Assembly (NCBI GenBank): GCA_002783265.1 | Contig: PFFG01000003.1 | Span: 1-39,298, forward strand | Length of the DNA: 39,298 nucleotides | Direction of reading: 5' to 3' | Origin: Candidatus Gracilibacteria bacterium CG17_big_fil_post_rev_8_21_14_2_50_48_13 | GTDB taxonomy: Bacteria > Patescibacteriota > Gracilibacteria > 1-14-2-50-48-13 | Shown: positions 18,631 through 23,874 of the stretch, one piece after another | How positions within the stretch are numbered: the stretch's first letter is position 1 | Layout of the letters: each line of letters begins with the position of its first letter | Notes under the pieces: generated by a model | Database searches by the model: none | The model's input: only the letters and a program-made list of their open reading frames with translations | Told to the model about the DNA's origin: nothing | Made by a program: the position numbers and the translations under genes

Positions 18631-18714
18631 TTAGCCGTTGCCGTTGCCGTAGCCGTAGCCGTTGCCGTCGCCGTCGCCGTCGCCGTAGCCGTTGCCGTCG
18701 TTTACTGTTGCCAT
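18631..18714 (-). CDS. (D/N/Y)-Gly repeat microprotein, 27 aa
   Basis: An ATG at 18714 lies inside the last codons of the upstream gene (ATGGCAACAGTAA holds both this start and that stop). It opens MATVN followed by eleven X-Gly dipeptides, with X = Asp, Asn or Tyr, then TAA. The reading frame is -1 to the upstream gene. It may be a separate coupled microprotein, or the former C-terminal tail of the upstream protein separated by a one-base change; some relatives of that protein, as I recall them, end in Gly-rich acidic tails. Confidence 0.45.
   Translation of the reverse strand: MATVNDGNGYGDGDGDGNGYGYGNGNG
18634..18699 (-). repeat. Hexanucleotide array, 11 units
   Basis: Eleven perfect-length units of GCCGTN on the plus strand (N = T,T,A,A,T,C,C,C,A,T,C). 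On the minus strand it encodes X-Gly dipeptides in the frame -1 to the upstream gene. Such arrays can gain or lose units by slippage without breaking the frame. Confidence 0.9.
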
Positions 18715-19073
18715 ACTGGTACGTTAGCAATACAAATACGCGCCTCTTCTGTCACATCCAATACCTCAATTACTTCCGTTAAATCAACCAAAGAAACCTC
18801 GCAAGGGAATTTGCAGTCATTCGGGTTCTTGACTCCTTCCATAGCAAGCTGTGATAGAGAAGACGCACCACTCCAGTACCACAAACGCCGTGCGTTTTTT
18901 AGTGTGGCTTCTTTCCCCTCACGGTGCGCAAGATAACCTGCGAAGACGCCTGCACTATATGTGCGAGCAATAACGTACTTCATCCCGTCTAAACTTTGTG
19001 CTGGTCTCATTTCCGTTCCTTTCGGTACGTAGACAACTCCGTTAATCTCTAACTCATTGAGCGTGGTTTTCAT
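18702..19073 (-). CDS. Conserved small phage protein (DUF6948-like), 123 aa
   Basis: The central segment 'KYVIARTYSAGVFAGYLA ... REGKEATLKNARRLWYWSGA ... LSQLAMEGV' is a conserved pattern of a small protein common in phages and annotated DUF6948 as far as I remember. The fold is probably a beta-rich domain followed by a short helix. Biochemical function is unknown to me. It ends IANVPVWQQ with TAA, immediately followed out of frame by the Gly-repeat array. It lies just upstream of the Acb2-like gene in the accessory operon. Confidence 0.65.
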   Translation of the reverse strand: MKTTLNELEINGVVYVPKGTEMRPAQSLDGMKYVIARTYSAGVFAGYLAHREGKEATLKNARRLWYWSGASSLSQLAMEGVKNPNDCKFPCEVSLVDLTEVIEVLDVTEEARICIANVPVWQQ

Positions 19074-19116
19074 GGTAAAATGAAAATAGGTAAATATATA
19101 GTCTGGTATAAAAACA

Positions 19117-19317
19117 TCACATCGGCGGCGTGTACCGCAAGTCCTCCATCTCGTCGTCCCGCCGTCTCGTGGCTATCTCTTTGAGGAGTTTGTCCTTGGA
19201 CTCCTCTATAACAGTTTGTAGGAAGCGCTTGAACTCTTCTCTCTGCTGGAATATGGATTGCTCTTTGTCGTGGGCTATGTCCATAGCTTGTTGGGTGTAG
19301 GTGTCGAGGTTACTCAT
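19117..19317 (-). CDS. Small charged helical protein, 66 aa
   Basis: It starts MSNLDTYTQQAMDIAHDKEQ at the repeated junction 12-mer. The frame is open to 19491, but that extension is the wrong frame of the real 54-residue gene next to it. The product is one long charged helix with a basic patch (ATRRRDDE). Coiled-coil self-association is likely; function unknown. Confidence 0.55.
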   Translation of the reverse strand: MSNLDTYTQQAMDIAHDKEQSIFQQREEFKRFLQTVIEESKDKLLKEIATRRRDDEMEDLRYTPPM

Positions 19318-19330
19318 GGTCAGTAATATA

Positions 19331-19495
19331 TTATTTTTTGGTAATCCAGTAGTGCCTCTCAAGGGTGGAGTCAAAGTTAGTATAGTACCACTGTTCCTTG
19401 CAACACCGTTTACAGCGCCGCTGGGGAGGTAGATAAGGGTTTGTGCTGTACTGCCATTTGTGCAACCGAAAAAGACATAAGAGTACATCACTCAT
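19331..19495 (-). CDS. CxxC microprotein (DUF1660-like), 54 aa
   Basis: Found by reading the gap in a third frame: MSDVLLCLFRLHKWQYSTNP, then RRCKRCCKEQWYY and ending HYWITKK. The pattern 'C-x-F-x-L-H-K-W ... R-x-C-K-R-C' resembles small zinc-binding phage proteins of the DUF1660 kind. Its start overlaps the upstream stop as ATGAGTGA. After its TAA the same frame reads seven more codons to DHE and a stop, the same ending as two upstream genes, so it may have been shortened by a base change in the A-run. Confidence 0.6.
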   Translation of the reverse strand: MSDVLLCLFRLHKWQYSTNPYLPPQRRCKRCCKEQWYYTNFDSTLERHYWITKK

Positions 19496-19760
19496 CTTGT
19501 TTGGGGTTACTGGTAAGGGAGGAACGGGCTTGTTCTAGCTTGTCAATCCACGTAGAAAGTGACATTTTTTGGCCTACCTTTTCCATCTTTGTAGCCTCAT
19601 CAGTAGCGTTGTTTAGCTCTTGATGGCGAACGTTCCAATCCTGCTTCATATCATCTATGATGGCGTCTAGCAGGTCTCTCTGAGCATTGGTCACCACTTC
19701 CTGCATCCCCTTGATAGTCCAGACTTGGTGCTTTTGGATTGCTTCCTGTATTTTACTCAT
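19488..19760 (-). CDS. Small helical protein, 90 aa, unknown
   Basis: It begins MSKIQEAIQKHQVWTIKG. The start is fixed by the ATGAGTAA overlap with the upstream gene. Long amphipathic helices with many Gln, Lys and Glu (LLDAIIDDMKQDWNVRHQEL) suggest a coiled coil. No known motif. Part of the small-gene operon. Confidence 0.55.
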   Translation of the reverse strand: MSKIQEAIQKHQVWTIKGMQEVVTNAQRDLLDAIIDDMKQDWNVRHQELNNATDEATKMEKVGQKMSLSTWIDKLEQARSSLTSNPKQDE

Positions 19761-19764
19761 GGTC
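19753..19764. repeat. Repeated gene-junction 12-mer TTACTCATGGTC
   Basis: The identical 12-mer occurs at 19310-19321, 19753-19764 and 19928-19939. In each it carries, on the minus strand, the start ATGAGTAA of the next gene. At the last two it also carries the preceding stop after Asp-His-Glu. Confidence 0.8.
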
Positions 19765-19935
19765 GGTAGTGTAAAAATGTAGGCATCTCGCTGGCACGTT
19801 TCGTACTGAGGTGTTGGGGAAACGTGTCGCAAACTCGGCACATGTCATATTCCTTTCGTTAACGTATGAGGCAACGACGACGGCCACCCATAGGAAAGCC
19901 AGTACACAAAGCGCCCAAAGTAGTTGTTTACTCAT
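19753..19935 (-). CDS. Single-pass membrane microprotein, 60 aa
   Basis: An N-terminal hydrophobic segment (LLWALCVLAFLWVAVVVASYV, about 5-25) is followed by a short polar domain with two cysteines (C32 and C51). It is probably inserted in the inner membrane with its tail outside. The ATG sits in the ATGAGTAA junction with the upstream gene and it ends TTDHE in the same junction with the next. Superinfection exclusion or inhibition of a membrane protein is possible but not shown. Confidence 0.6.
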   Translation of the reverse strand: MSKQLLWALCVLAFLWVAVVVASYVNERNMTCAEFATRFPNTSVRNVPARCLHFYTTDHE

Positions 19936-20254
19936 GGTCTTTCGTCTTGGTTAGGGATAGAGAGTTGCGGGCCATTTGCATCCTGTCTGCCACTTGTCGC
20001 ATTGCAAAGTTAATGATTTCTTCGTATTGTCCGTCGCTGCTGTCCCCTATTCGTGCTGCCTCTGCTCGGGTGTCCTCAATAAACAAATCAAGTAGACGTT
20101 CCGCTAGGCTGTTTTGTAAATCCATAGCGTCCTGTAAGTCCACAGCAAATGTATGTACGTCACCTACTGAGACAGATATAGCACAGGATGCCATATCAAA
20201 TCCTAGTTCCTCCATCACCTCCCGCACTCTTTCTGCCAAAGTGTTATTGGTCAT
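19928..20254 (-). CDS. Small helical protein, 108 aa, unknown
   Basis: The start MTNNTLAERVREVMEEL follows the XRE gene stop after four bases. The frame is open further upstream inside that gene. The N-terminal half has a short beta segment (CAISVSVGDVHTFAVDL); the rest is helical with many Glu, Arg and Met. It ends TKDHE at the shared junction. Not recognised. Confidence 0.5.
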   Translation of the reverse strand: MTNNTLAERVREVMEELGFDMASCAISVSVGDVHTFAVDLQDAMDLQNSLAERLLDLFIEDTRAEAARIGDSSDGQYEEIINFAMRQVADRMQMARNSLSLTKTKDHE

Positions 20255-21487: not shown

Positions 21488-21714
21488 TCTTTTATATACA
21501 TTTTTTCAAAGTCTTCTACGGGAATCCCTATTGAACGGGTGATAGTTTTCAACTCACGTGCTACTTGATCTGGAACGGGGTACTTGCCAGACTCAATATG
21601 CTTGAGCTGTCCTTCTGTGAGCGACAGATACCGGACGAATTGCGGAAGCGAGAGATTGAGTTTTTTACGTAGCCAGCGTGGAAACTCTTTATGCGTGAAA
21701 GGAAATAATTCCAT
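21484..21714 (-). CDS. XRE-family HTH protein, 76 aa (repressor candidate)
   Basis: Starts MELFPFTHKEFPRWLRKKLN. The HTH is 'LSLPQFVRYLSLTEGQLKHIESGKYPVPDQ', with the S/T-x-x-x-I-E-S-G-K pattern of Cro/cI-like proteins. It ends at the promoter of the accessory operon, whose palindrome is a natural target. It overlaps the membrane-HTH gene upstream by 26 bases, so the two are expressed together. Confidence 0.75.
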   Translation of the reverse strand: MELFPFTHKEFPRWLRKKLNLSLPQFVRYLSLTEGQLKHIESGKYPVPDQVARELKTITRSIGIPVEDFEKMYIKD

Positions 21715-22096
21715 AGAAAGCAAGACAGAAAAAGATAAAAGTGAGTAGCCCAAACACGCCAACAAGGATTCGTTGTGTTGTTCTCGTCGTCTTGATCTGT
21801 GGTTTTTCGTTGTATATCGTGATAATCTTGTTTTTGAGTTTTTGTACGATCTCTTCGTGGACGTTGCGTCGTGGTGTATTCGGATAGTTCGGGTGGTCCA
21901 TGTGAAGGAGAATATAATAATCTCCGGTGGTATACCCTAGTTGTATAAGAACTTTGAGAAGAGTTGTATATGTGAGTTGCCTGTCACGCTGCATGATCCT
22001 TTGTGCTGTTGTGCGCGACGTGACATCACGTAGTGTAAGATGTTTTCTGCGGCATAGCTCTTCGATAATCGCACACAAAACATTTTTTCGGTCCAT
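21689..22096 (-). CDS. HTH protein with C-terminal membrane anchor, 135 aa
   Basis: The N-terminal 60 residues are helical and HTH-like (LTLRDVTSRTTAQRIMQRD ... LLKVLIQLGYTTGDY). A basic linker follows, then one clear membrane segment at about 110-132 (RILVGVFGLLTFIFFCLAF). A DNA-binding head tethered to the membrane is unusual for a phage. The neighbour upstream is a lysozyme-like enzyme and the one downstream is the short HTH repressor. DNA binding is inferred, and the N-terminal fold match is weaker than in the other HTH genes here. Confidence 0.55.
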   Translation of the reverse strand: MDRKNVLCAIIEELCRRKHLTLRDVTSRTTAQRIMQRDRQLTYTTLLKVLIQLGYTTGDYYILLHMDHPNYPNTPRRNVHEEIVQKLKNKIITIYNEKPQIKTTRTTQRILVGVFGLLTFIFFCLAFYGIISFHA

Positions 22097-22123: not shown

Positions 22124-22774
22124 TTATTCTGTGATGATTTCAAAACGTTTCAACACACCGGGGCTGTACGCATTCGCCATACCGTGCCACTTCATACCGT
22201 CTCGCGACCGCCAGTCTCTCCATCTCGCGGAAAAAAGTACATCATTTACATCAGCAACAGCACGAAAATCACGACAACCTTTCTCGATTTGTTTTTCGAT
22301 GCTGTGAAAATCTTGAGAACGTACAAACGCAATATTGTCTTTATACCGCTTGTTTCCAGTGAACCACTGGAACAAGCCATGATCTGAAGTCGGCCCCTTT
22401 GCGTACATGTCCCACCGTGATTCTGCCTCGACCATAAACACAGCATCAATACTGCCACACTCGCGAATAAGCTTTGGAATCATTTCATTGATTTTGGCAA
22501 GGTCCGCCTCAGTGTGGAACTTGTCCTTCAACCTCTTCACTGACACAATCTTTTTGCCAACAAATGGGTTTTGGTAGTGTAACGTCGGTGCCTTGATATA
22601 CCTCCGCAGTGTCACCGTTCCGTCGGCGGCCAAATAGCTCTGATATGCCGTGAACTTCACGGGCTTGTCTGCCACCGTGTGCGGTGAGGGCACAGGGAGA
22701 ATCGCGGCGTTGCTCGCTGGAAGCCAGCATAGAACAACTCCCAGAAGAAACAGGTAAAAGAAAAATCGGTACAT
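22124..22774 (-). CDS. Secreted lysozyme/transglycosylase-like protein, 216 aa
   Basis: The chosen start MYRFFFYLFLLGVVLCWLP gives a signal peptide (basic n-region, hydrophobic core, then PASNA-A). The mature part has an 'EAESRWDMYAKG ... SDHGLFQW' motif, with E118 as the probable catalytic acid and the G-L-x-Q element of SLT-type lysozyme-like folds. It should act on glycan strands outside the membrane. Because it sits in a leftward regulatory operon and not with the lysis genes, wall remodelling or superinfection exclusion is more likely than lysis. A longer start at 22828 is possible but would lose the signal peptide. Confidence 0.65.
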   Translation of the reverse strand: MYRFFFYLFLLGVVLCWLPASNAAILPVPSPHTVADKPVKFTAYQSYLAADGTVTLRRYIKAPTLHYQNPFVGKKIVSVKRLKDKFHTEADLAKINEMIPKLIRECGSIDAVFMVEAESRWDMYAKGPTSDHGLFQWFTGNKRYKDNIAFVRSQDFHSIEKQIEKGCRDFRAVADVNDVLFSARWRDWRSRDGMKWHGMANAYSPGVLKRFEIITE

Positions 22775-22785
22775 AGAAAAGAAAG

Positions 22786-23136
22786 TTACGAGTTGAGAAT
22801 ACACCCGCGCACCGTACGTTTCCCCCACTGGTTTGCGGCAAGACGTCCAGCGTCACCGTGCCCCATCCAAATATCCAGACGATCGTACGCGTATCCACGC
22901 TTCCCAGCAGGAACAATCGCACCACCACGGTCTTCGACGGTATACGTCTTTCCGTTGATCTGGATCTTCGTGCCAAACGCGTACTTCGCAGGAGCCGCCA
23001 TCATACCATCAAAAACAGGTTTACGGGACGCACCATGTGTGCCGTTTCCTTGCAACCGTTTTTCTTTGGCAAGTGTTCCCATGTTATAGGCGCGTTGGCC
23101 GGGGAGAGGAGAATAGTATGCTGTCACCACAAACAT
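22786..23136 (-). CDS. 3D-domain (double-psi beta-barrel) protein
   Basis: The product, from MFVVTAYYSPLPGQRAYN, has the 3D pattern: VTAYY near the start, 'GTHGASRKPVFDGMMAAP', 'AFGTKIQI', 'VEDRGGAIVP' and 'YDRLDIWMGHGDAGR'. These form the double-psi barrel seen in MltA/RlpA-like wall enzymes and contain the conserved aspartates. Upstream in the same frame 'AHAAELDTCQ' runs into this ATG, as in relatives I recall, but no ATG, GTG or TTG precedes it, so the start as drawn cuts into the domain. The missing N-terminus is probably supplied by -1 frameshifting from the upstream gene. Confidence 0.65.
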   Translation of the reverse strand: MFVVTAYYSPLPGQRAYNMGTLAKEKRLQGNGTHGASRKPVFDGMMAAPAKYAFGTKIQINGKTYTVEDRGGAIVPAGKRGYAYDRLDIWMGHGDAGRLAANQWGKRTVRGCILNS

Positions 23137-23185
23137 CTGGCATGTATCCAGTTCTGCTGCATGTGCTTGCGGGAGAATAGTTTTC

Positions 23186-23211
23186 GACGGTTTCGCGTCT
23201 ATTCTTTTCCC
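23186..23211 (-). promoter_or_regulatory. Candidate -1 ribosomal frameshift site
   Basis: On the minus strand the slippery heptamer GGGAAAA (23211-23205) is in frame as G-GGA-AAA. It is followed after five bases by a short hairpin, GACG-cgaaac-CGTC (23199-23186), and the zero-frame stop TAG lies at 23201-23199. Lambda G-GT shifting uses GGGAAAG, one base different. The -1 frame joins the 3D domain. Confidence 0.55.
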
Positions 23212-23507
23212 AACGCATCGGACTTCGCACGCAACTCTTGGATTTTCGTTTTCCGTTCGTTGGCAAGTGCGTTGACCTCTGCTTGTTTCTGCTGTGCTTC
23301 AGTGATAATCTTCTGCTTCTCTGCCCACGTTGCTTGTAGGCGCTTCACTTCAATCTCCAGTTCTATTACTTGTGCTGCATACTCGCGGTACTTCGCTGCT
23401 GCTGGATCAAAGACATTGTTCCATGCTGCACCGCCGGCGACAAGAGCAATCGCGCTCGCGACGCCTACCGCACCCAAAACAAATTTGTTGAAAAGAATGT
23501 GTGTCAT
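23199..23507 (-). CDS. Membrane-anchored coiled-coil protein, 102 aa
   Basis: Starts MTHILFNKFVLGAVGV; a membrane segment at about 7-27 (FVLGAVGVASAIALVAGGAAW) is followed by a coiled coil from 40 to 102 (YAAQVIELEIEVKRLQATW...). Spanin-like topology, but it is in an early operon. Two codons before the TAG stop is the heptamer G-GGA-AAA. A -1 shift there continues directly into the 3D domain. Confidence 0.65.
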   Translation of the reverse strand: MTHILFNKFVLGAVGVASAIALVAGGAAWNNVFDPAAAKYREYAAQVIELEIEVKRLQATWAEKQKIITEAQQKQAEVNALANERKTKIQELRAKSDALGKE

Positions 23508-23514
23508 GTTTGTA

Positions 23515-23874
23515 TTATTGTAAAGGAATGAACACGCCTGCAACATGCAGGATACTCATCAGTACCACACCAAGGAACACCACCCATGCAACGATATTGG
23601 TCCAGTCTATAGAGGGGAGAGATCGTCCTACAGGACGTTTCGCCCATTGATCTTTTTCCGACTGTGGGATTACCTGCATCATGTGTTTCGCCATAAGATT
23701 CTGCACATCGCGCAGTATCAGTGGGATATACTTCTTCCCGTATTTTGTGGCCGGGTTCAACCGTTGTGACATAGCACCTTCACTGATCCCGTACATAGAC
23801 GCAAGATCTCTTTGTGTGAGTTTTAAGATTGCCATGTCACAGACGAGCAGTGCCTTTTTTTGTTGAATAGACAT
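23515..23874 (-). CDS. HTH protein with C-terminal membrane anchor, 119 aa
   Basis: An HTH lies at about 16-42: 'LKLTQRDLASMYGISEGAMSQRLN'. A basic linker follows and then a membrane helix at about 92-115 (WTNIVAWVVFLGVVLMSIL). The start overlaps the upstream gene stop as TAATG. Together with the similar gene at 21689-22096 it brackets the cell-wall genes. It could be a repressor whose activity depends on the membrane. Confidence 0.6.
   Translation of the reverse strand: MSIQQKKALLVCDMAILKLTQRDLASMYGISEGAMSQRLNPATKYGKKYIPLILRDVQNLMAKHMMQVIPQSEKDQWAKRPVGRSLPSIDWTNIVAWVVFLGVVLMSILHVAGVFIPLQ

Follow-up and report, generated by a model that had tools for sequence, protein, structure and literature searches.

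Among DNA phages, tail chaperones are the best-known case of frameshifting. The lambda G-GT tail chaperone is produced by −1 frameshifting at G_GGA_AAG (Xu, Hendrix and Duda 2004, cited in PMC10885494; review, PMC5009743), and a study cited in the same review linked expression of the MS2 lysis gene to frameshifting/termination in the coat gene. The phage cassette described here resembles lambda G-GT, as presented in these sources, in that a GGGAAA-type X_XXY_YYZ site lies near the zero-frame end and a minor extended product would share its N-terminus with the major one. However, the lambda site lies in tail genes and has Z = G, whereas the present site lies among lysis-type genes and has Z = A. 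As in the cited MS2 case, frameshifting would be tied to a lysis function; however, it leads there to initiation at a separate gene and would lead here to a fusion protein. The enzymatic part of the cassette is comparable to the 3D lytic transglycosylases YuiC/Sps and MltA (PMC4499186), with which it shares the MltA fold, a YuiC profile, and two acidic residues, and from which it differs by an alanine at a third position and by a coiled-coil tether. The anchor part recalls the two-component spanins Rz/Rz1 (PMC6139136), in which an inner-membrane anchor and coiled coil overlap a second frame in the lysis region. In contrast to Rz1, the second frame of the phage encodes an enzyme domain without a lipobox, and the PHROG matches to Rz are based on the coiled coil. 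A literature search, which was not exhaustive, returned no lysin or lysis enzyme made by programmed frameshifting.

The window analysed (39,298 bp) is the entire contig C10 of an 11-contig genome of 1.28 Mb. Judged by its 3D relatives, the host belongs to the class Gracilibacteria as GTDB defines it (Peregrinibacteria, Peribacteria, and Absconditabacterales). The window carries a tailed phage with RecT, a DnaB-like helicase, a terminase, an SU10-type portal, and a major head protein. Its last base is joined to its first, with 8 bases between, in an IMG/VR contig of 39,378 bp; therefore, the phage genome was assembled as a circle and is essentially complete. We propose that −1 programmed frameshifting at G_GGA_AAA probably makes a 240-aa membrane-tethered lysin in this phage. 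The fusion interpretation is supported by several independent lines of evidence that are individually modest, and the sequence tests for the frameshift are each modest singly and post hoc.

The zero-frame anchor gene (23199..23507, minus strand) is an ORF of 102 aa that begins at ATG 23507, ends at TAG 23201-23199, and reads ...GCG TTG GGA AAA GAA TAG at its 3' end. Hydropathy places an N-terminal membrane segment at approximately residues 4-29, followed by a coiled coil of ~70 residues. This layout agrees with the N-terminal membrane segment plus periplasmic coiled coil expected of an Rz-like spanin, and the weak PHROG matches of the gene (E 0.0014-0.05) are also Rz-like spanin/coiled-coil matches. 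The overlapping frame contained no Rz-type outer-membrane lipoprotein partner; it encodes the 3D domain, which has no lipobox. The candidate −1 slippery heptamer G_GGA_AAA (23205..23211, minus strand) lies inside the overlap, and its X_XXY_YYZ zero-frame register was verified. The earlier note was right that this heptamer is in frame near the stop of the anchor gene (GAA separates AAA from TAG, so that AAA is second from the stop) and that a −1 shift leads from it into the 3D frame, which gives a fusion of 240 aa. Among 382 phage and host ORFs, the chance of a canonical heptamer is 2% within the last 5 codons and 11% within the last 33 codons. The five-base spacer and the short hairpin GACG-CGAAAC-CGUC proposed to follow the heptamer are also present (23186..23199, minus strand; 4-bp stem GACG/CGUC, −2.3 kcal/mol). 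However, a stimulatory role for the hairpin gained no support: the hairpin is weak, and folds of 55-131 nt in this region were not significantly better than those of shuffled sequences (z −0.8 to −1.5). Reading by eye, we found no evident SD-like stimulator upstream of the heptamer.

To our knowledge, the Z = A version of the GGGAAAG-type site is less well documented in bacteria. The change from GGA-AAA to GGG-AAA would permit full re-pairing by tRNAs with UCC and UUU anticodons, and tRNA-Gly(UCC), tRNA-Lys(UUU), and tRNA-Lys(CUU) are all present in the host. Strong AAG-type sites in Escherichia coli depend on its sole tRNA-Lys (PMC5009743). Since the present host has a separate tRNA-Lys(CUU), an AAG site would be expected to re-pair poorly in it.

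Slippage of the RNA polymerase at the A-run, instead of the ribosome, would give the same product; however, a run of four A is too short for this, and we regard transcriptional slippage as scarcely credible. It is also improbable, if less so, that the two frames were parted by a recent one-base break in a once-fused gene or by an assembly error, with the 3D domain then unmade or made only by rare errors. One base gained or lost in the A-run would suffice to part them, and the linker beyond the break is still coding-like. In contrast, the break coincides exactly with a canonical heptamer, the domain is undecayed, with coding codon usage and two acidic positions kept, and the assemblies are identical here though different elsewhere. 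The cassette sequence is the same in two IMG/VR contigs, of which one has another opening point; outside the cassette, each of the two departs from the window by 5-6 bases. These bases appear confined to ~18.6-20.2 kb (window 18634-20219), because the overlapping loci match exactly from 20,220 onwards, and the other parts compared are identical as well. An erroneous base call in the A-run, a concern of the earlier note, is unlikely given that the second assembly has exactly the same letters there, although the reads of the assemblies are not necessarily independent.

We then consider whether the 3D frame has a start of its own. A codon scan of this frame, which is open from 23298 to 22786 (minus strand), bore out the claim that it has no ATG, GTG, or TTG before ATG 23136, and the only near-start codons ahead of this ATG are ATA 23202, ATT 23178, and CTG 23151. 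The host 16S rRNA has a normal anti-SD sequence (CACCTCC). However, an SD-like tetramer is rare ahead of starts (2 of 34 listed in the phage; 4% of 252 in the host) and commoner ahead of internal ATGs (14%). The Shine-Dalgarno sequence was thus useless as a test of the 3D start, and leader models were used instead. As an observation in its own right, host and phage starts (in the window and in loci L088-L106) are depleted of SD sequences despite the intact 16S anti-SD, and their leaders are pyrimidine-rich. In the leader model trained on host starts, the median of 33 phage starts equals the host median (4.3). ATG 23136 scored −3.67, equal to the median of internal ATGs; 97% of host starts scored higher, and only one of the 33 phage starts scored lower. 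A phage-trained model agreed. Therefore, under both models, ATG 23136 is a poor start that looks like an internal ATG.

This result bears on the reading in which two proteins are made: the anchor with its coiled coil, and a 3D lysin that is re-initiated at ATG 23136 after TAG 23199, stays in the cytoplasm, and is released by a holin. The position of ATG 23136 at the edge of the domain, with the core domain complete from there, speaks for two proteins. So do the classic endolysins, which do not require a signal peptide. In contrast, the context of ATG 23136 is that of an internal ATG, and, together with the evidence on the linker, the first strand, and the neighbouring gene given below, this leads us to consider two separate proteins unlikely. 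Initiation of the 3D ORF at one of the rarely used non-standard start codons, for instance ATT 23178 or CTG 23151, appears very unlikely. As a start, ATT 23178 scores in the intermediate range (0.12; 18% of host starts score lower). However, ATT starts are rare, CTG 23151 scored badly in the host-trained model, and a signal peptide would not be gained with either codon.

Codon usage speaks for translation across the junction. The 63 bases before the first ATG (23137..23199, minus strand) read DAKPSKTILPQAHAAELDTCQ in the 3D frame. Scored with phage codon usage, the sequence is positive in the anchor frame up to the heptamer (~23200) and in the 3D frame thereafter. The linker scores +3.6 bits in the 3D frame versus −7.3 and −5.6 bits in the other two frames. 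This score is exceeded by 78% of in-frame windows; among open windows, 4% of the off-frame ones and 15% of the intergenic ones reach it. The maximum-likelihood frame switch falls at 23199-23211, i.e., at the heptamer, and a fused model is better by 3.3 bits than a stop, noncoding gap, and ATG. Codon usage thus gives moderate support for a coding gap, which argues against two proteins. The earlier note had also claimed that the stretch AHAAELDTCQ resembles relatives. By eye, the pre-ATG peptide looks like the ends of host signal peptides (PQANA, PQASA, AHAA), but this likeness was not significant when set against shuffled sequences or windows of phage ORFs.

The 3D/MltA-type domain (22786..23136, minus strand; a 116-aa ORF if begun at ATG 23136) scored 15.6 bits against Pfam 3D, below the cut-off of 23.8. 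Its AF2 model, built with 40 relatives, has a pLDDT of 92 and the fold of a 3D/MltA lytic transglycosylase, with a Foldseek match to MltA (2gae, E 5e-4), and profiles match YuiC. Counterparts of YuiC D151 and of the catalytic D162 are retained (VEDRGG and RLDIW); the counterpart of D129 is Ala, as it is in nearly all aligned relatives from the class. The codon usage of the domain is that of coding sequence, with no decay. In the AF2 model, the first beta-strand covers residues 19-30; its T19, C20, and Q21 precede the ATG-encoded M22. The last strand (128-135) carries C133. C20, encoded ahead of the ATG, and C133 are the only cysteines in the fusion. Among relatives, excluding the phage, three of the six with a cysteine near the first strand also have one in the last strand, versus 7 of 100 others (p 0.011), and the cysteine positions of L157 and L187 shift in step (residue sum 153), as expected of antiparallel strands. 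Together with the model, these patterns suggest a disulfide in the fusion that would require a codon ahead of the ATG. A start at ATG 23136 would remove three residues and the paired cysteine from the first strand, which argues against re-initiation there.

The single chain of membrane anchor, coiled coil, and wall domain envisaged in the earlier note is thus supported by the codon switch, the poor ATG, and the first strand, but not by the hairpin as a stimulator or by the homology of AHAAELDTCQ. On the evidence of the sequence and the model, a −1 frameshift linking both frames is the best-supported reading, and the indirect tests favour a fusion.

The 3D domain is present in 301 of the 353 genomes of the class. 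The host-type relatives are long secreted proteins (~400-600 aa) with a signal peptide and C-terminal repeats, and the signal peptide stands just before the domain in nearly all of the host relatives inspected. The phage domain differs in that its ORF alone has no hydrophobic segment or export signal by hydropathy. Its closest relative, and the upper limit of its identity to the class-wide protein (63%), is a gene of its own host (G000:C3:68267-68608), which suggests that the domain was captured from a host. Searches of IMG/VR and the 353 class genomes found no divergent relative of the anchor/3D cassette and yielded only near-identical copies of the phage. A stand-alone, signal-less 3D ORF of 184 aa is present in a phage-like contig of an unrelated MAG (L150:154-708, readable with code 25). 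It overlaps an upstream ORF in a −1 relation, yet it possesses an in-frame ATG of its own and lacks a canonical heptamer. This contig shows that phages use the 3D domain in an overlapped arrangement. It lends weight to the two-protein reading; with regard to frameshifting as a general rule, it is neutral to mildly unfavourable. Three other candidates were rejected: an IMG/VR 18-mer match (L031) was a chance match in an unrelated frame, and two candidate phage fusions (L140 and L172) were both host proteins. The terminase and RecT, as a route to sister phages, led to the same phage, to distant proteins, or to a chromosomal-looking contig of another Gracilibacteria genome (G001). The terminase in that contig (L056:2990-4291) has 40% identity to that of the phage and stands there alone.

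What we observe is a set of sequence features, codon usage specific to each frame, a start context that is poor, and a predicted fold; from these, we infer the slip itself, its efficiency, the export of the enzyme, and its role in lysis. The majority of ribosomes would terminate at TAG 23199 and release a membrane-anchored coiled coil. A fraction would slip back one base, with tRNA-Gly moving from GGA to GGG and tRNA-Lys from AAA to AAA, and would then read a linker of 20 residues and the 3D/MltA-type lytic transglycosylase domain. The anchor would export the enzyme and hold it outside the membrane on a coiled coil of ~10 nm (~70 helical residues), alongside a second secreted lysin-like gene product, and the tethered enzyme may help to cut the wall at lysis. 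The short anchor product may co-assemble with the fusion and set the dose of the enzyme. We are evenly divided on the stronger proposal that the lysin is made solely by −1 frameshifting, such that slip frequency sets the anchor/enzyme ratio, and with it timing and dose, in a bacterium that barely uses SD sequences. If true, a frameshift-dosed, membrane-tethered lysin would be a new use of frameshifting in phages and would offer a direct way to study the passage of phages through the little-known envelopes of Gracilibacteria/Patescibacteria. Start-context models of this kind could also reveal further hidden fusions in genomes without Shine-Dalgarno signals.

The second lysin-like gene is the one that follows the 3D ORF (22124..22774, minus strand). 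It was recognized from its ORF and, by eye, from an SLT-lysozyme-like ES...GLFQ motif, and its product appears to be secreted. Neither Pfam nor PHROG assigned it to a family, the PDB gave no meaningful match, and its single-sequence AF2 model was poor. Its own N-terminal signal-like segment argues against a cytoplasmic, holin-released 3D lysin beside it. The gene preceding the cassette (23515..23874, minus strand) encodes an N-terminal HTH-like region, based on weak HTH matches, and a C-terminal membrane segment with a hydropathy peak of 2.64 at residues 98-116. Another flanking gene (21689-22096, minus strand) likewise has an HTH-like region at the N-terminus and a single membrane segment at the C-terminus. 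It is possible that these two genes encode membrane-tethered regulators or unusual holins.
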